Assembly (NCBI GenBank): GCA_019695345.1 | Contig: JAIBAE010000032.1 | Location: forward strand, 1-45,355 | Reading direction: 5' to 3' | Source of the DNA: Bacteroidota bacterium | Lineage (GTDB): Bacteria > Bacteroidota > Ignavibacteria > Kapaibacteriales > NICIL-2 | Length of the DNA stretch: 45,355 nucleotides | Shown: positions 7,029-17,155 of the stretch, one piece after another | Position numbering within the stretch: the first letter of the stretch is position 1 | How the letters are laid out: each line of letters begins with the position of its first letter | Notes under the pieces: model-generated | Seen by the model: the letters and a program-made list of their open reading frames with translations, nothing else | Database searches by the model: none | What the model was told of the DNA's origin: nothing | Made by a program: the position numbers and the translations under genes

Positions 7029-7038
7029 ATGATTTTTA

Positions 7039-7116
7039 CCAACACCGAGGACAGGAATAGGTATGACCTGCGCAATCAATGGTTGCTATGAGAGAGTGCC
7101 GCCTCTCCGGTGTTGG
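7039..7116 (+). repeat. 78-nt multi-arm structured repeat, copy 2
   Basis: Second copy of the element at 1685-1762. The outer stem here is 10 bp (ACCAACACCG/CGGTGTTGGT). Internal stems are CAGG/CCTG, GCAATC/GGTTGC and GAGAG/CTCTC. On the plus strand it is followed by TTTTATT. The outer stem also folds on the minus strand, where it would be part of the methylase leader. Confidence 0.7.
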
Positions 7117-7164
7117 TTTTATTAAGGTAACTTCTTACGTACCCAACAACTTTAAAATAAAGAT

Positions 7165-7277
7165 CGGTGGACTGCTCCCTTGCTACAATCCACCGAATGA
7201 ACCATGTAGTTGAACAGCATACTCCCTTGCTATACACTGTTCTATGGTAGATTCCAACTCCCTTGCAAATCAGAATC
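7165..7277 (-). repeat. Three hairpins sharing one loop sequence
   Basis: Three consecutive hairpins: CGGTGGA/TCCACCG (7165-7195), GAACAG/CTGTTC (7212-7242) and GATTC/GAATC (7250-7277). Their stems are unrelated, but every loop contains CTCCCTTGC (minus strand GCAAGGGAG). The loop core starts at 7175, 7222 and 7258. A TAAGTTTG box at 7310-7317 on the minus strand suggests transcription leftwards towards the methylase. Confidence 0.6.
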
Positions 7278-7309
7278 CGATGCCAAAATACAAATGCAAT
7301 CCAGATGGA

Positions 7310-7317
7310 CAAACTTA
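7310..7317 (-). promoter_or_regulatory. Possible -7 box (TAAGTTTG) reading towards methylase
   Basis: TAnnTTTG match on the minus strand, about 410 bases before the methylase ATG. No TTG at 19-21 bases upstream. If used, the leader would contain the three hairpins and the reverse of the 78-nt repeat. Confidence 0.35.
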
Positions 7318-7330
7318 TTTTTTACATTGA

Positions 7331-7397
7331 GATTCTTTCCCGCAAACCGAGGTACTGTTTGTATATAGCTGTTGGGGCGGTCAGGCGTTAGCAAAAA
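7331..7397 (-). repeat. Intergenic structured element, subfamily I, copy D
   Basis: Minus strand begins TTTGCTAACGCC and ends GGGAAAGAATC. CCGC (7380-7377) pairs with GCGG (7343-7340). It lies directly upstream of the TAAGTTTG box. Confidence 0.6.
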
Positions 7398-7463
7398 ATA
7401 CTACACCCACTGTTAGATACCACGTAAAATGTTAACTTGCCGCATCACATACTGTAAAGTGTT

Positions 7464-8681
7464 ATGCCTGTACTTGGAATTATTGTTTTTATGGCATTGG
7501 CGTGGCTGATGTCGGTGAATAAAAAAGCGTTTCCTGTTCGCATTGTTGTGTGGGGAGTTATCCTGCAAGTTGCGCTTGCGTTTTTTGTGTTGAATACCGG
7601 CTTTGGCGTTAGTTTGTTTGCCTCGGTTGGGAATGGATTTACTACACTGCTTGGTTACAGTAAAGCGGGCACGTTGTTCCTGTTTGGCAATATGGTTAAA
7701 CCGGAATTCTTTGATACGTTTGGTGCGCAGGTTGCGTTAACAATTGTGCCTACTATTATTTTCTTTTCGTCGTTGGTTTCGGTGTTGTATCATGTGGGTG
7801 TTATAAGCCGCATTGTATATGCTATTGCTTGGGTTATGAATAAAACTATGGGCACAAGCGGACCCGAAACACTTAACGCCGCCGCAAATATTTTTATAGG
7901 ACAAACCGAAGCGCCCATTTTAATTCGTGCGTATTTAGATAAAAGTACCAACAGCGAAATTCAGGCAATTATGGTTGCGGGTTTTGCTACTATTGCAAGC
8001 TCGGTTATGGGTGCGTATATCTCGTTTGGTATCTCTGCGCAGTATCTGTTGTTTGCTTCTATTCTTGCTGCGCCGGGGTCGTTACTTATGTCTAAAATTG
8101 CATTCCCACCGGAAGGGAATGAGCTTACTTTTAATCACATCTCCCCCCGCACCGAAAGAACTGCCTCCAACATTCTGGAAGCCGCTACAAATGGTGCGCG
8201 AGATGGACTTATGCTGGGGCTAAATGTTATTGCAATGTTGTTAGCGTTTATTGCTCTTGTTGCCCTTACCGATGCCGGAATGGGTTGGGTGCATCAGTAT
8301 GTTGCGTGGTTTCCTGCATCGTTAAAAGATATGTTTGCATATGCGTTTATGCCTTTTGCGTATTTGGTTGGTGTACCTGCAAATGAAGCACATATTTTTG
8401 CAAAGTTGTTTGGAACTAAGATTGCCCTGAATGAATTTATTGCATATAAAGATTTAGCAGATTTACTCAAGTCCGGCGCTGTATCGGCAAAGACTGTTAC
8501 GTTGTGTACTATTGCGTTATGCGGTTTTGCAAACATCTCGTCCATTGCAATTCAGATTGGTGGTATTGGTGCGCTTGCCCCAAGCCGTCGCTCCGATTTA
8601 GCAAAGGTTGGCTGGCGTTCCATGGCACTTGGCGCACTAACAAACCTGATGGTAACGGCAATTGCAAGTTTGTTTTTGTAA
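7464..8681 (+). CDS. Concentrative nucleoside transporter (CNT/NupC family)
   Basis: 405 residues, the usual CNT length. Inner-membrane, cation-coupled uptake of nucleosides. The N terminus carries three hydrophobic spans (about 3-50). The family signatures are visible: GPETLNAAANIFIGQTEAPILIRAYL (about 132-156), with the GQTEAP substrate loop, and the C-terminal GFANISSIAIQIGGIGALAP (about 355-374). Scaffold residues in PANEAHIFAKLFGTKIALNEF also fit. The ATG at 7464 gives a sensible first span. It stands alone in its transcription unit unless it continues into the cyclase gene 83 bases downstream. Confidence 0.9.
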   Translation: MPVLGIIVFMALAWLMSVNKKAFPVRIVVWGVILQVALAFFVLNTGFGVSLFASVGNGFTTLLGYSKAGTLFLFGNMVKPEFFDTFGAQVALTIVPTIIFFSSLVSVLYHVGVISRIVYAIAWVMNKTMGTSGPETLNAAANIFIGQTEAPILIRAYLDKSTNSEIQAIMVAGFATIASSVMGAYISFGISAQYLLFASILAAPGSLLMSKIAFPPEGNELTFNHISPRTERTASNILEAATNGARDGLMLGLNVIAMLLAFIALVALTDAGMGWVHQYVAWFPASLKDMFAYAFMPFAYLVGVPANEAHIFAKLFGTKIALNEFIAYKDLADLLKSGAVSAKTVTLCTIALCGFANISSIAIQIGGIGALAPSRRSDLAKVGWRSMALGALTNLMVTAIASLFL

Positions 8682-10194: not shown

Positions 10195-10230
10195 AAAAAT
10201 AGGGCGGCTACTCCCTTAGTTGCCGCCCCT
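10195..10230 (-). terminator. Intrinsic terminator of the T9SS cargo operon
   Basis: On the minus strand AGGGGCGGC pairs with GCCGCCCT around a 13-nt loop, then ATTTTTTC follows. It lies 31 bases beyond the stop of the 1,794-residue protein. The loop (AACTAAGGGAGTA) shares AAGGGAG with the three loops at 7165-7277. Confidence 0.85.
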
Positions 10231-10260: not shown

Positions 10261-13200
10261 CTATCTTAAAATTGTGACTGGAGAATTGATTGTTTGAATA
10301 GAACCTCGGACACGAACATAATAAATACCTTCTGCATAATCCTGTATATCAAGTGTAGTTGTTTCCATTGCTTTAATGCTTCTCTTTTGTATTGTTTTGC
10401 CAAGTGCATCGGTAAACTCTAAAACATACTCAAAGTTTCTTTCTGCGATGTCCTCCGGCATTCCTTCAAAACGAATAAGGAGTTCTTTGTTAGCTGGATT
10501 TGGATACACAAACAATTGAGTTGATTCTTTGGATAGCAATGTCTGAGACACATCTACAACATAATCATTTTCGGTTGTTGTTTTACCAAGTAGTTCAGGT
10601 ATATCGCCAATATACACATCTTCGTAATACTGCGCTTGTTCGTTTGTTTTACCCATTACAAACCTAAATTCATCACCTCCGCCATTGCGTAATGCAATTC
10701 TACCGGCACGAACCTTTTTTCCATCTTGTGGTGCAAGTGAACGTACATCAATTGGTACTCTCATTCTTGTTCTCTTATTTTCAATACTCATATTTACTAA
10801 ATCTACTTCGTTATCTGCAAGTACAAACTTGATTACTTTGTTTTGGTACACGGAAAACCAATCACTAGTTAAGCTATCACGTAACACGTTACGCTCCTGT
10901 TTTTTTCTTCCTGTATTTCTCATAGTACTCTCTGTTGTTGTACTTAGAATGTCGGCAATAGCAAATCTCGAGTTACCCTGCTGAAAACCGGAAAGTACAA
11001 AGTGGGATAACTGTTGCATTACACTTCGCTTTAAAAGTTCTGTGCCCGATGAAAATATACTTTTGTTTATCGCGTTACTTGGTATTGTTTGAGCACGGCG
11101 AACAAATGTCCAATAGAAGTCTTCTGTGATAAACGGTTGATGTGCGAGTTGAGCATTTTCTGCATTTTCAATATACTGAATTGGACTGCCCCAATAAAAA
11201 TAGCTCTGTGTTATATGTGCAAGCCAACCATATTCAGGTAGATTAAAATTCAGAACATACGATGAATCGGTTAAACGGGGATTCATTGAATCAAAATACC
11301 AATTCATGGCATGAGTACCACTTGGGTTATTAAGTGTTGTTGTGCAACTGAATATAGTACCTCCATAAGCAGACGATAAATATTCAGGGGCAGTAATACT
11401 GTCTCGTATCGAACTGATGTTACTCAGAAAAATTCCACTTCTGTTGTTCACATATCCATTACATGGAATACTACTATCACCTTGAAAGACAATTTTATCG
11501 GAATGGAAATATTTATCACCATTATTTGCAAAAGACATTCTTTCAACCGAAGGAAGTTTAAATTGATGGAATCCTTGTGCCGCAAGTGGCATAACGCTAA
11601 TTCTTGCTTTTGTACCATCTAAGGTATCAATGTTGTGTCCGTTTTGGGAGACTTTCATGCTTGGTAGTTCATGGTATGATAAATCTGTAAAAGGATTCCA
11701 ATACAACCGAGTGTAGTAGATATGCCACTCACCCCATACAGAGGTAGAATCATCAGCATTTTTTTCTTGCCATACCAAAGCACATTCATCCTCATTCTTT
11801 AGATTACTATATGTATTTATACTTGGGTGTCGTGCATCTGCAATAGTTGTAAAGCTTGAATATCGAGGTTGATAACATGAAACATTGTGCCAAACAAAAG
11901 TATGCCTGTGAGTTGTATCTGGTACTCTTCCACTGTATTCTATTCCATTTCCATAGCTCGAAAAAGCATAATAATTATGATGTTGTGAAGCGTTGACAAC
12001 GGGATGACCATAGACTTCTATATTTGAACTATCGGCTCTGGCAATTTCTTCGGACTTTGGAATAGTAGTATTGGATTCAAATTGACTTTCTACAATACGA
12101 AGCCAGTTATAGCTATCATCTTTCTGGCAAGAATACACACAATACACATACTCTTTTAAATCAAAAGTATCAAACCTGACAACAATTGAGGGATATTTAC
12201 ATGGATATTCTGTAACAACATCATACCCAATATCAGGAGGTAGCTTTGTAATAAGGATTGAATCCGTTAGGCAAAACGTTGACTCCCAAACAACATTTAA
12301 TCCTGTTAGTATTGGGTTTGTTACATCATAGGGTGCGCAACGCTCAATAAGTTTACTGCGTTTGTAATACACTCGTGAAACTGCCATAGGTGGTTGTCCC
12401 GGTTTGAATACCGTATCCAATCTGTGAAACACCAAATGATACCGAACATGAGTACTGTCATAAATTGGTTTCCTTGATGTTGAATCAATTCCAATGAGTG
12501 TAGGCATTGCAATTAATTTATGCTGTGAAACTGGCTCGATCGAACCTCTGTCAGTAAATCTATCTTGTGGTTTAACTAACGTAACACGATAAATCTTAGA
12601 TTCGCCGGGCAGATACTTTGAACTCAAAGAACAGCTTTGACAAATAACAGTATCAAGTGTTCCACCGAGTTCTTGAACATGGAGTAATCGGGTTTTTGTA
12701 TCAGGGTGGCGATATGTAAAAGGAATTGTTATTTCCCTTGAACCAATCTGAGAATATTTAGATAATTGGCCTGCGTTTACTAAAGAATCAAACTCAAAAG
12801 TTGGATGGAATTTATATCGGGCTGTATCGAGTAAGGTCGTATCGGGGTTCACTTCTACATTAGGGTTAACATGTCTGTTAAGTACTCCAACATAAAATAT
12901 TGAATCTTGAGTAACATCCTTTCTACGTAAGACAGTCATATCAAAAAATGTGGAGCGTGTGCCCCACGTTTCCGGTTGTGTTTGTGGTAGTTCACGAACT
13001 TTAACTTTGCCCCAAGCAAAGTCAACAAACCGTGTGTACCAAGTTGTGTCATCGTTTCTACATGTACGAAACCAATTAAAGCCCTTTCCTTGCCATGCAC
13101 ATAATTCGAGTTTCATAAGTTCAGATTCTACCGAAATTATTTTATCGTGTTGTTCCATCAAGACCTTTCTTTTTGAGCGCATACCTGTAAAGATTCTGTT

Positions 13201-15645
13201 TAATGGGACACCCATAGAATCGGCAAGTTCTTGAGTGCGGACAAATTTCCATGAATTACTATTTGGTGTTGGTACAAAAAAATCGTGACCTACGGTATCC
13301 GAAAGTAATGTTGTAGTACCTGTTATATCGCCTTGAACCTTGAATGAATATAAGTTAGGCATTTCGTAGAGTGCGGAATAGTTGTGAAAATCACCATTGA
13401 TATAACGGGCACCGTATTGAATACTATTCAGACCTAAATGCTGTGCTATTGTATCTGGATTGAACAGCGTTCCGTTAGAGTATAAGCCGTCTGCGTAGTT
13501 TAGACCTTTGGTTCCCAAAATCAAACTAAAACCAAGTGTATTTCTTAGCTCTTCACCAGTTGTAGCTCTTGTATGTCCGTGATATTTCCAAAATGGTTGA
13601 ATAGTTCCATCCGGTTGTTTTATTGCCCCATATGTATACCATGTTGTAATACTATGTCGTGAGATATATGGTACAGTACTGTAGTATTTTCTTTTGTTAA
13701 GAAACGCTTGTCTTGCCAAACTTTCCATTTGGCAGAGTACGATATTGCTATTAGCATCTAGTCTATTAGGTGGTAGTGTGTCGTTACTCCACGGGAATCC
13801 TTCGTGGTAATGTGGTATCCAAGGGCCATTTGGAATTGGCTGTGTATATGAGATACAGCTTTCACAATCATAATTAGTTGGGCGAACACCTTGAATTGAT
13901 TGTGTTGTAGATTTATTGTTTCCGCCGGGATAGTTTAACAAACGATATGGTGCTAATGTATCAAGTGTTGGCTTATTAAATGATGTTCCATACGTTGCAA
14001 ACTGCCTGCCCGAAGGTATTGCACTTTCTTCTTCCCAAAATGAATGTTGTGGTACATGATGTTGGTATCTATCGCCACTAACAGCCGATATATGGAATCC
14101 TTCCAACAGTGAGTTTAGATATCTATTCATGCGCCAACAACGGGGTGGTGTTTCATCCATGCCATACATACGGTACAAACGTATTTGTTGTTGTGGGTTG
14201 TTTTGTTGCAATAGTTTTATACTTTTTAACGCCCTATCCAGCCCCTGTGCGGCAAGAGTATCTTTAGAACCCCATAGTATATCATTACCATGTGGCGTAG
14301 TTAGTACCAAGTGCGTAATTGCAACATTACAACCACCATTGTAATAGACTCGTAGGTCAATACTATCTATTGGGCCTGTTTGCCCCCAATCACTTGGAAA
14401 CCACGGGTTTGGTGCCCAAAGTGAAGTATCATTTTCAACGGGATCAAACGTTCGGAAATATGCACCCAGAGCAATATTACATGCAGTATCAGATGATGAA
14501 TATACTGGTAAGGCATTACGGCGAATAATAAAACTTGTAGAATCTATGCCGTTAGTACTTGTAAGTTTTGCCCACCGTTTACCACGTGGTGTATTGATAA
14601 TGTCTGTTGAAGTGTTCTTGGTGAATATGGAGTCGAAACGGATAGAATCCTTTTTACTCAAATATGATTGTGCATTTTGGTCATACACTTTACTCCAAAA
14701 AATAATCTTTAGTGTAGCTACTTTTCCGACATCTAATGAATCTTGGTAAATAGCATCAGGTAAGCGGCGCAGATTAACTGATAGTAGCCATGTATTACCT
14801 GAGTTCCCTCTGTTTTCCCATCGGCTTGCGGAATCTGCAATCATGGAATTAACCAATGCAGAATATTGTTGAGCAATAACTATTTTTTCAGCTTGAGTTT
14901 TTCCGGTGGTATCTGGATAACTTGGTCGGGTGAATGCCCGATAGTACGCAACTTGACTATTGCTTCTACGAATTTCGTTAAACATATCGGGCTTACTAAG
15001 TACCAACATATTACCACCACTTGGGAGTGAATCGCGTAATAATTTGTAACCCATGAAGCCCATTGCATTACTATCGGTGATTACCGAACCATGTTGTTTG
15101 TTTTTGAACCCAAAGATGCTTCCATATTTATCGCCTGCTAATGGTTTCCAAACAGAATCTTCGTAAAAGGGTGGTGCGGACGGCCGCCATTCAATCATTG
15201 TGTTTCCGTTTTTAATTACTTCGCTTGTAAAAGCATTAAACTGGAGTATCAAATTTACTTTTCTGCCGTTTGGTTGTCCGTCCATAATTCCCCATGTTTT
15301 ACTAAACTCATAACCATCCTGATTTTTACTCCACCCGTAATGATTCATAGGCATATTTGTATGTAATCGGCGTTCAATAATACCATTTGAACCCTGACTC
15401 CAATGATAACCAAGTAAAAAATTATCTGCGTCTTTTTGCACTATTGAAGTATCATTGAAATTGATGTTTACCGTATTGTTAACAGTGGTATCAAGAACAT
15501 AGCCATTTGATGTACTGTAGTATTTAACAAATGTGTATTGATACCCGTTGAATCTTGAGAGTGAAGGCGGGTCGCCGATTACTTGGGCATTAAGATGTAT
15601 TACGAATGTTGTAATAAGCAGTAGCTGAATAAGTATTGTTTTCAT
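10261..15645 (-). CDS. Large secreted protein with T9SS C-terminal sorting domain
   Basis: 1,794 residues from the ATG at 15645. I chose this start because AAGGAG lies 7 bases upstream and it begins a clean signal peptide (MKTILIQLLLITTFVIHLNAQ); an in-frame TTG six codons earlier is less likely. The body shows many aromatic, beta-rich segments but no domain I recognise. The last 90 residues are a type A sorting domain: VYPNPANKELLIRF, then TDALGKTIQKRSI, then YAEGIYYVRV near the end. This marks it for export through the T9SS and attachment to or release from the cell surface. It is the second gene of a minus-strand operon, starting 10 bases after the stop of the FG-GAP protein. Confidence 0.85.
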   Translation of the reverse strand: MKTILIQLLLITTFVIHLNAQVIGDPPSLSRFNGYQYTFVKYYSTSNGYVLDTTVNNTVNINFNDTSIVQKDADNFLLGYHWSQGSNGIIERRLHTNMPMNHYGWSKNQDGYEFSKTWGIMDGQPNGRKVNLILQFNAFTSEVIKNGNTMIEWRPSAPPFYEDSVWKPLAGDKYGSIFGFKNKQHGSVITDSNAMGFMGYKLLRDSLPSGGNMLVLSKPDMFNEIRRSNSQVAYYRAFTRPSYPDTTGKTQAEKIVIAQQYSALVNSMIADSASRWENRGNSGNTWLLSVNLRRLPDAIYQDSLDVGKVATLKIIFWSKVYDQNAQSYLSKKDSIRFDSIFTKNTSTDIINTPRGKRWAKLTSTNGIDSTSFIIRRNALPVYSSSDTACNIALGAYFRTFDPVENDTSLWAPNPWFPSDWGQTGPIDSIDLRVYYNGGCNVAITHLVLTTPHGNDILWGSKDTLAAQGLDRALKSIKLLQQNNPQQQIRLYRMYGMDETPPRCWRMNRYLNSLLEGFHISAVSGDRYQHHVPQHSFWEEESAIPSGRQFATYGTSFNKPTLDTLAPYRLLNYPGGNNKSTTQSIQGVRPTNYDCESCISYTQPIPNGPWIPHYHEGFPWSNDTLPPNRLDANSNIVLCQMESLARQAFLNKRKYYSTVPYISRHSITTWYTYGAIKQPDGTIQPFWKYHGHTRATTGEELRNTLGFSLILGTKGLNYADGLYSNGTLFNPDTIAQHLGLNSIQYGARYINGDFHNYSALYEMPNLYSFKVQGDITGTTTLLSDTVGHDFFVPTPNSNSWKFVRTQELADSMGVPLNRIFTGMRSKRKVLMEQHDKIISVESELMKLELCAWQGKGFNWFRTCRNDDTTWYTRFVDFAWGKVKVRELPQTQPETWGTRSTFFDMTVLRRKDVTQDSIFYVGVLNRHVNPNVEVNPDTTLLDTARYKFHPTFEFDSLVNAGQLSKYSQIGSREITIPFTYRHPDTKTRLLHVQELGGTLDTVICQSCSLSSKYLPGESKIYRVTLVKPQDRFTDRGSIEPVSQHKLIAMPTLIGIDSTSRKPIYDSTHVRYHLVFHRLDTVFKPGQPPMAVSRVYYKRSKLIERCAPYDVTNPILTGLNVVWESTFCLTDSILITKLPPDIGYDVVTEYPCKYPSIVVRFDTFDLKEYVYCVYSCQKDDSYNWLRIVESQFESNTTIPKSEEIARADSSNIEVYGHPVVNASQHHNYYAFSSYGNGIEYSGRVPDTTHRHTFVWHNVSCYQPRYSSFTTIADARHPSINTYSNLKNEDECALVWQEKNADDSTSVWGEWHIYYTRLYWNPFTDLSYHELPSMKVSQNGHNIDTLDGTKARISVMPLAAQGFHQFKLPSVERMSFANNGDKYFHSDKIVFQGDSSIPCNGYVNNRSGIFLSNISSIRDSITAPEYLSSAYGGTIFSCTTTLNNPSGTHAMNWYFDSMNPRLTDSSYVLNFNLPEYGWLAHITQSYFYWGSPIQYIENAENAQLAHQPFITEDFYWTFVRRAQTIPSNAINKSIFSSGTELLKRSVMQQLSHFVLSGFQQGNSRFAIADILSTTTESTMRNTGRKKQERNVLRDSLTSDWFSVYQNKVIKFVLADNEVDLVNMSIENKRTRMRVPIDVRSLAPQDGKKVRAGRIALRNGGGDEFRFVMGKTNEQAQYYEDVYIGDIPELLGKTTTENDYVVDVSQTLLSKESTQLFVYPNPANKELLIRFEGMPEDIAERNFEYVLEFTDALGKTIQKRSIKAMETTTLDIQDYAEGIYYVRVRGSIQTINSPVTILR

Positions 15646-15655
15646 TTTGTTCTCC

Positions 15656-17155
15656 TTATTCAATTATTATTGCTTTATCTATAATCTGTTTATTAACAAT
15701 TAGCCGTAAATTATACATCCCACTTGGTAAACTGTTTCTCTGTGCATTAAGTGGTATTGAGTTTGCACCTATTGTTAGGCCTCCATTCCAAATATCAATT
15801 ATCTTTATACCCTGTAAGGAGTAAAGCTCAAGTTTAGCCGGAGATTCCTTCGGTGATGTAATCTCTATTGTATATGGTAGGTTTTTTTGTATTGGGTTTT
15901 GAATGCTTATACCAATATCATTCGTGTATGATGAATCTCCCACATTTGTGTTTTGGTCTATGCCAAGATATATTCTGAATATTCTATACTTTCCTGAAGT
16001 ATATGTACTAGCAATATCATTCAAACCGTCATTGTTTACATCTCCTGTTGACACAACCTTTGTAAGTCGGATTAATTCAGTTTCTCCGCTTCTTTCTAAG
16101 TAACATGGAAACCGCGCAAATCCGGTTTGTGGAATTATAGGGCTACCATCAAAGCAGATGATATTACAAGTAGTATTTACCGTTGAACCAACTAACCAAC
16201 CGCATTCACTTTCCTTATGTATAGGTTTTGCAATCTGATAACTAAAACCACTACCTTGTTCCAACGTAATCGGGCTTGTACTAAATACATCATTGATTAA
16301 GTTATATGTAATCGGATGAATTTTTACACAATGAATATCATGTATGTTAGAATGAATTGGATGAAACTTTGCGGCAATTAGTTGTGCATCTTCATTGAAT
16401 AAGTTTACATTAGATATGTTTTGATATTTTAATACTCTCTTACCTACATCACCTTGTATATCAACAGCCCACAAATGGAGTTTGCCGTTTGCCCGTTTAT
16501 TATCCCACGTCATGGTTATTATCCGCATACCTTTGCCTTGCAAATAATAGGCATCCATCAAACATTGGGCGTTTTCGTTGAAGTCTAAGTATTCGGTTAA
16601 AGGTAATGAAACAACTTCCATATTGGTAATTTCAGTATTACCAAGAATGATTGATCCTAAAAGCTTTGTATCGCTTGGAGAGACATATGCAGAGAAAATT
16701 AAATCATCCTTTCCATCTTGGTTTATATCGGTTACTTTACCCCTATATGCTGAATGCCCAGGATAGTAACTTTGAACACTTGGTACTCTTGGTGGTGCGT
16801 TTTTCTTAACACCTAGATAGACCCCATAATTTGAATTAAAGTAATCTGTAATTCCATCGCCATTAAAATCACCATACCATAATTCTGGAATTGAATTTTG
16901 CCAAGAAAACATATTCGCAGTATCACCCTTATATCGGTTGTAAACAGTTATACCGCCAATACCGGGTGCATTGTGATAAACTGCATCTGCACCTCCATTT
17001 GCTGTATCAAAGTAAGGTAAGTATTGCATGTTCAATCCAAGATTTCCATTAACCTGTTCATACCACACAGGTAGTTCGGGGAGTTTAGACCAGTCTTGGG
17101 CGTGTGTTGTGTGTGTGCCTGCTAAAACTATAAGCATTGCAAAAAACAGTTTCAT
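15656..17155 (-). CDS. Secreted FG-GAP/VCBS repeat protein with T9SS sorting domain
   Basis: 499 residues from the ATG at 17155, preceded by GAGG. That start gives a signal peptide MKLFFAMLIVLAGTHTTHAQ; the frame extends 22 codons upstream, but that part is charged and unlike a leader. Calcium-binding FG-GAP type motifs recur: GDFNGDGITDYF, TDINQDGKDDLIF and GDVNNDGLNDIAS, suggesting a beta-propeller. The C-terminal 80 residues resemble a T9SS sorting domain (LELYSLQGIKIIDI, then LPSGMYNLRL). Exported to the cell surface, probably for binding. First gene of the operon with the 1,794-residue protein. Confidence 0.85.
   Translation of the reverse strand: MKLFFAMLIVLAGTHTTHAQDWSKLPELPVWYEQVNGNLGLNMQYLPYFDTANGGADAVYHNAPGIGGITVYNRYKGDTANMFSWQNSIPELWYGDFNGDGITDYFNSNYGVYLGVKKNAPPRVPSVQSYYPGHSAYRGKVTDINQDGKDDLIFSAYVSPSDTKLLGSIILGNTEITNMEVVSLPLTEYLDFNENAQCLMDAYYLQGKGMRIITMTWDNKRANGKLHLWAVDIQGDVGKRVLKYQNISNVNLFNEDAQLIAAKFHPIHSNIHDIHCVKIHPITYNLINDVFSTSPITLEQGSGFSYQIAKPIHKESECGWLVGSTVNTTCNIICFDGSPIIPQTGFARFPCYLERSGETELIRLTKVVSTGDVNNDGLNDIASTYTSGKYRIFRIYLGIDQNTNVGDSSYTNDIGISIQNPIQKNLPYTIEITSPKESPAKLELYSLQGIKIIDIWNGGLTIGANSIPLNAQRNSLPSGMYNLRLIVNKQIIDKAIIIE

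Follow-up and report, generated by a model that had tools for sequence, protein, structure and literature searches.

A multi-copy family of predicted small RNA genes with fixed GGA loops, candidate CsrA decoys in a FliW-bearing member of the Bacteroidota

Results

A three-hairpin array beside a restriction pair

The window, meaning the whole 45,355-nucleotide stretch of DNA analysed, carries a methylase–nuclease pair in the minus orientation and, close to it, a compact array of hairpins. The window contains three copies, and no more, of the word CTCCCTTGC (GCAAGGGAG on the minus strand), at 7175-7183, 7222-7230 and 7258-7266, and every copy forms the loop of a different stem. Shuffled versions of the window held 0.08 copies on average and never reached three. 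Across the whole genome there are 25 copies against 4 of the reversed control word, an excess that reading the surroundings of the sites traced to hairpins. In minus-strand order, hairpin 3 (7249-7278) comes first, with a 9-bp stem and a 12-nt loop, UUUGCAAGGGAG. It is followed by hairpin 2 (7212-7242), with a 10-bp stem and an 11-nt loop, UAGCAAGGGAG, and by hairpin 1 (7164-7196), which places the same UAGCAAGGGAG loop on an 11-bp stem and runs into the U-tract UCUUUAUUUU (7154-7163). Folded as a single sequence, the minus strand of 7153-7285 is more stable than its shuffles (z = -3.97).

Several other elements were noted. Direct copies of an element of ~89 bp, which has inverted ends of 9 bp (CCAACACCG/CGGTGTTGG) and a multibranched fold, stand at 1682-1770 and 7036-7124, on either side of the window's methionine-synthase and restriction genes. 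Tandem copies (7951-8033 and 8044-8127), with a diverged third at ~7859-7937, stand before a duplicate restriction pair on contig C122 (L441). Possible identities of the element are a site of recombination and a further RNA. A Type I restriction specificity subunit (43-1308) sits at the contig edge and adjoins the repeat copy at 1682. Positions ~7327-7404 hold one member of an intergenic repeat family that is dispersed in this genome and has the core GCGGT...GGCGWTAGCA; 1.57 Mb of the genome gave ~40 partial matches to it.

The array belongs to a family whose loops are fixed and whose stems covary

The array is one copy of a multi-copy element. Clear arrays of the loop word are found in the window (contig C26), at C4:2622-2706 and C25:25075-25152 (three hairpins each) and at C39:374-424 (two), and the number of AGGGAG loops is likewise three in the first three and two in C39. 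A diverged fifth array of two hairpins lies at C60:4461-4533, where the second hairpin reads AAGGGGG and has lost its GGA, leaving AGGGAG in one of the two loops. Single loop-word hairpins outside arrays occur on C1, C27 and C163. A covariance model of the array (R1) matched the window at 7153-7291 with 138.6 bits and also recovered C4, C25 and C39. All four arrays fold more stably than their shuffles when taken as single sequences (z from -4.0 to -7.7).

We aligned three arrays on the minus strand, taking the structure from one of these three rows, and found that all 30 base pairs (9, 10 and 11 bp) hold, those of hairpin 3 in each of the three arrays. The aligned cells comprise 76 Watson-Crick pairs, 13 G-U pairs, one gap and no mismatch, so that 100% are paired; for shuffles the figure is 83.5%, and for slid controls it is 22-51%. 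Fourteen pairs changed on both sides, against 5.5 in shuffles, and hairpin 2 shows such double changes in 7 of its 10 pairs. The GCAAGGGAG loop core is meanwhile identical throughout (81/81 positions), whereas the stems agree at only 58% (104/178). An earlier note on this DNA had described a common loop on unlike stems, displayed by an RNA from the minus strand and bearing a GGA-type motif, and the alignment upholds each point: AGGGAG contains ANGGA, and the 13 G-U pairs would become A-C mismatches on the other strand, which assigns the RNA to the minus strand and led us to reject a plus-strand sRNA with CU-rich loops. The loop variants GCAAGGGAG, GCAGGGAG, GTAAGGGAG and CUAAGGGAG keep AGGGAG, a form of ANGGAN, in all hairpins but one, and a GCA precedes the loop core in most copies.

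Each array resembles an independent small RNA gene

On the minus strand, a predicted -33 element (TTTG, 7310-7313) and a -7 element of the TAnnTTTG type (TATTTTGG, 7283-7290) precede hairpin 3. The latter aligns with TATTTTCG, TAACTTGC and TATGTTTG of the other arrays, always 11 nt ahead of an invariant CGG. The pattern TTTK-N19-TAnnTTnS, framed after the sites had been seen, stands ahead of the first hairpin by the same distance in four of four arrays, against a background of 5.6e-5 per base. The flavobacterial -7 consensus is TAnnTTTG (PMC9723704), and the predicted promoter shared by the four arrays is of a Bacteroidota, housekeeping type. A TAAGTTTG box singled out earlier is indeed present at 7310-7317, but the element kept among the copies differs slightly from it, consisting of the TTTG and TATTTTGG just described. 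At the other end, the last hairpin of the arrays and its U-tract, which is conserved in four arrays, form a predicted intrinsic terminator.

The predicted transcript spans 7153-7279 (~127 nt), its start placed by the promoter and its end by the terminator. A shared promoter and a terminator in the last hairpin point to an independent sRNA gene of this length rather than a methylase leader. As predicted from sequence, then, the region is an independent minus-strand sRNA gene, and the genome has at least five such paralogues, this one included.

The proximity to the restriction genes had suggested a leader that times methylase versus nuclease. The array does share its strand with the pair and lies upstream of it, but its predicted terminator ends ~250 nt before the methylase start, it has its own predicted promoter, and the remaining array copies adjoin unrelated genes rather than a restriction pair. 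There is also a duplicate nuclease/methylase pair on C122: its nuclease and methylase share 97% and 83% DNA identity with those of the window, yet homology extends only to the equivalent of window position 7124, short of the hairpins, and no such hairpin, loop word or AAGGGAG was found in the 16 kb read there. We rejected a cis-leader of the restriction-modification operon because of the terminator before the gene and the missing array at the duplicate, and regard the timing role as highly improbable.

The family is confined to this genome among those searched

Rfam, including RNAs of the CsrB/RsmZ type, gave no match at the gathering threshold and only chance-level ones at E values up to 10, which excluded a known Rfam RNA. 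Because of this lack of an Rfam match, the arrays are, by sequence, a previously undescribed family of predicted sRNA genes. Searches with R1 across the order, under stricter filters that lose weak matches, matched no other genome (123 genomes tallied, 51 genera; the window's genus is represented by one genome). Within the window's family, a search covering two loop words found no convincing equivalent array of AGGGA or AAGGA, and among the matches listed elsewhere, those fetched (genome and viral contigs) were chance pairs without hairpins.

CsrA was present in 53 of 99 relatives tested. Its distribution in the order is patchy: it was found in no tested genome of one family (f2) or of two genera (g9 and g22), and in all but one of the tested genomes of the window's own family.

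The genome encodes CsrA, FliW and canonical CsrA sites

The check proposed earlier for a CsrA/RsmA-type protein succeeded. The genome encodes one CsrA (C18:14428, 78.6 bits), with FliW directly upstream and a MotB-like gene before that. Aligned to RsmE (2JPP), this CsrA keeps L4 and R44. Its position 55 is N, which has been described as central to the binding of FliW (PMC13407953).

One flagellin leader contains two tandem hexaloop hairpins, AAUUC-AAGGAU-GAAUU and GUUAC-AUGGAG-GUAAC, on the minus strand of C41 (L379; 18145 and 18174), the second directly before the AUG start codon. In 1.57 Mb there are just 16 hairpins that close an ANGGAN hexaloop with a perfect 5-bp stem, these two included, and hairpins with ANGGAN hexaloops show no genome-wide enrichment. 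Textbook hexaloops in tandem before a flagellin start suggest that CsrA here probably reads canonical ANGGAN hexaloop sites. Another leader carries AUACAGGGAGGU, one letter off the CsrA SELEX consensus RUACARGGAUGU (PMC7652899). The C25 array itself lies in a flagellar cluster, 3' of flagellin, FliD, FlaG and an FlgM-like frame (called by eye) on the same strand. Separately, a conserved intergenic block with possible CsrA sites of the GTAAGGAGTAC type occurs in three copies (L354, C13:36102; L355, C128:67917; L356, C44:3384).

The same loop recurs on terminators of secreted-protein genes

The earlier note had also proposed looking for further hairpins with this loop in the genome, and these exist. 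The R2 terminator model and a hairpin census turned up 22 hairpins whose loop contains or adjoins AGGGAG, against none with the reversed word, in 1.57 Mb of contigs partly picked for holding matches. Ten are single terminators located 27-31 nt past the stops of related genes, whose ends resemble sorting domains of the type IX secretion system (T9SS), and the edge of a contig carries one more. The ten use three stem kinds and the loops GCAAGGGAG, GCAGGGAG or CUAAGGGAG. One is in the window on the minus strand (10201-10229, loop AACUAAGGGAGUA with the same AGGGAG core), behind the gene at 10261-15663, for which Pfam confirmed a Por_Secre_tail domain. Matches of R2 read out in relatives were ordinary terminators without AGGGAG, and we accordingly discarded the loop as a general feature of terminators. 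Shared descent of the T9SS gene ends accounts for part of their common loop. These terminators may also be further candidate CsrA sites at mRNA 3' ends.

Discussion

AGGGAG loops that fit ANGGAN, an encoded CsrA, flagellin operators and the flagellar setting of the C25 array together make a CsrB/RsmZ-like CsrA decoy the best explanation of this sRNA family, one that we consider somewhat probable. The features by which such RNAs are recognized are present: several hairpin loops with GGA (ANGGA), an individual promoter and terminator as predicted from sequence, and a CsrA with its RNA-contact residues in the same genome. Two or three tandem hairpins would each present AGGGAG, usually within GCAAGGGAG. 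Since each loop offers an ANGGA site, one sRNA could hold one or more CsrA dimers off weaker mRNA sites such as those in the flagellin leaders, acting alongside the FliW encoded next to CsrA. The suggestion of a small RNA sponge in the earlier note best fits the fixed GGA loops, the independent gene and the encoded CsrA.

Some observations count against a decoy. A classic CsrA site presents a hexaloop on a short stem, whereas the loops here measure 11-12 nt on stems of 9-11 bp. Additional loop nucleotides can lower CsrA affinity (PMC7652899). The conserved GCA before the core exceeds what CsrA should need, and there are relatives that possess CsrA without the array family, as judged by R1. The missing GGA in one C60 loop, the lack of genome-wide enrichment of ANGGAN hexaloop hairpins and the failure to find equivalent AGGGA or AAGGA arrays in the family also weigh on this side. 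The long loops and the GCA leave room for a different reader, either another RNA-binding protein or a CU-rich RNA that base-pairs with GCAAGGGAG. The conserved loop is indeed longer than the CsrA core and forms no closed hexaloop, and AAGGGAG could by our reasoning pair with a CUCCUUU-type anti-Shine-Dalgarno sequence via one G-U. Yet the genome already encodes the classic GGA reader, CsrA, and GCAGGGAG, GUAAGGGAG and CUAAGGGAG break any fixed seed while keeping AGGGAG. Moreover, CTCCCTTGC has 11 sites that are not part of hairpins, all of them within or next to coding frames and none at a sense-strand start codon, a number close to the ~8 expected from scaled-up window shuffles. Antisense action by the full 9-nt complement was rejected, with no site at gene starts. 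We judge such a reader unlikely, be it a protein or a CU-rich partner such as a target mRNA or the anti-Shine-Dalgarno end of the 16S RNA. Still less plausible is a family with no function in trans, in which duplicated terminators or repeats share a loop through common descent or structural preference. Dispersed repeats are common nearby, and single terminators at a constant 27-31 nt past the stops of related T9SS genes fit gene duplication. Against this, the loop stays 100% identical while stems fall to 58% with compensatory changes, the arrays carry promoters and two to three hairpins, and the terminator-model matches read out in relatives lack AGGGAG.

As a proposed decoy, the family resembles CsrB/CsrC and RsmX/Y/Z of the Gammaproteobacteria in having several independent sRNA genes in a genome with CsrA, and tandem hairpins with GGA in the loop. 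It differs from them in lacking any sequence or Rfam match to them, in its long stems of 9-11 bp and invariant loop word of 9 nt, in offering no more than two or three sites, and in a host that also has FliW. FliW is almost never found with BarA-UvrY, the system that transcribes CsrB/C, and a 2015 survey describes the two as almost mutually exclusive (PMC4682653). The flaA mRNA leader of Campylobacter jejuni provides RNA-based CsrA titration in a FliW-bearing bacterium (PMC4894983). It shares that kind of host and the flagellar link with the titration proposed here, but its two hexaloops belong to the leader of an mRNA and not to a family of separate sRNAs. For Bacillus subtilis, a CsrB-like sRNA has been reported, with a role that the citing paper treats as unsettled (PMC4347634), and it too has been put forward as an sRNA antagonist in a bacterium with FliW. 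FliW and the proposed decoy would both be CsrA antagonists, and the FliW gene adjoins csrA here. Unlike the sRNA, however, FliW is a protein that binds the C-terminal extension of CsrA.

FliW restrains CsrA in other bacteria and is regarded as the main control on CsrA outside the Gammaproteobacteria. To our knowledge, decoy RNAs of the CsrB kind are established only in bacteria without FliW, yet this bacterium has FliW, and it is for this reason that the finding matters. A more tentative possibility, which we think rather doubtful, is that two layers act on CsrA, FliW and multi-copy decoy sRNAs, with additional decoy loops in the terminators of secreted-protein genes. If so, a single class of genes would report to CsrA through the 3' ends of its mRNAs. 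Looking for fixed loops on covarying stems is a route to decoy RNAs that have no sequence in common with CsrB. Whether FliW and sRNAs act jointly on CsrA in any species was named an open question in a 2020 review (PMC7652899). With CsrA, FliW, flagellin operators and candidate decoys together in one genome, that question becomes directly testable.
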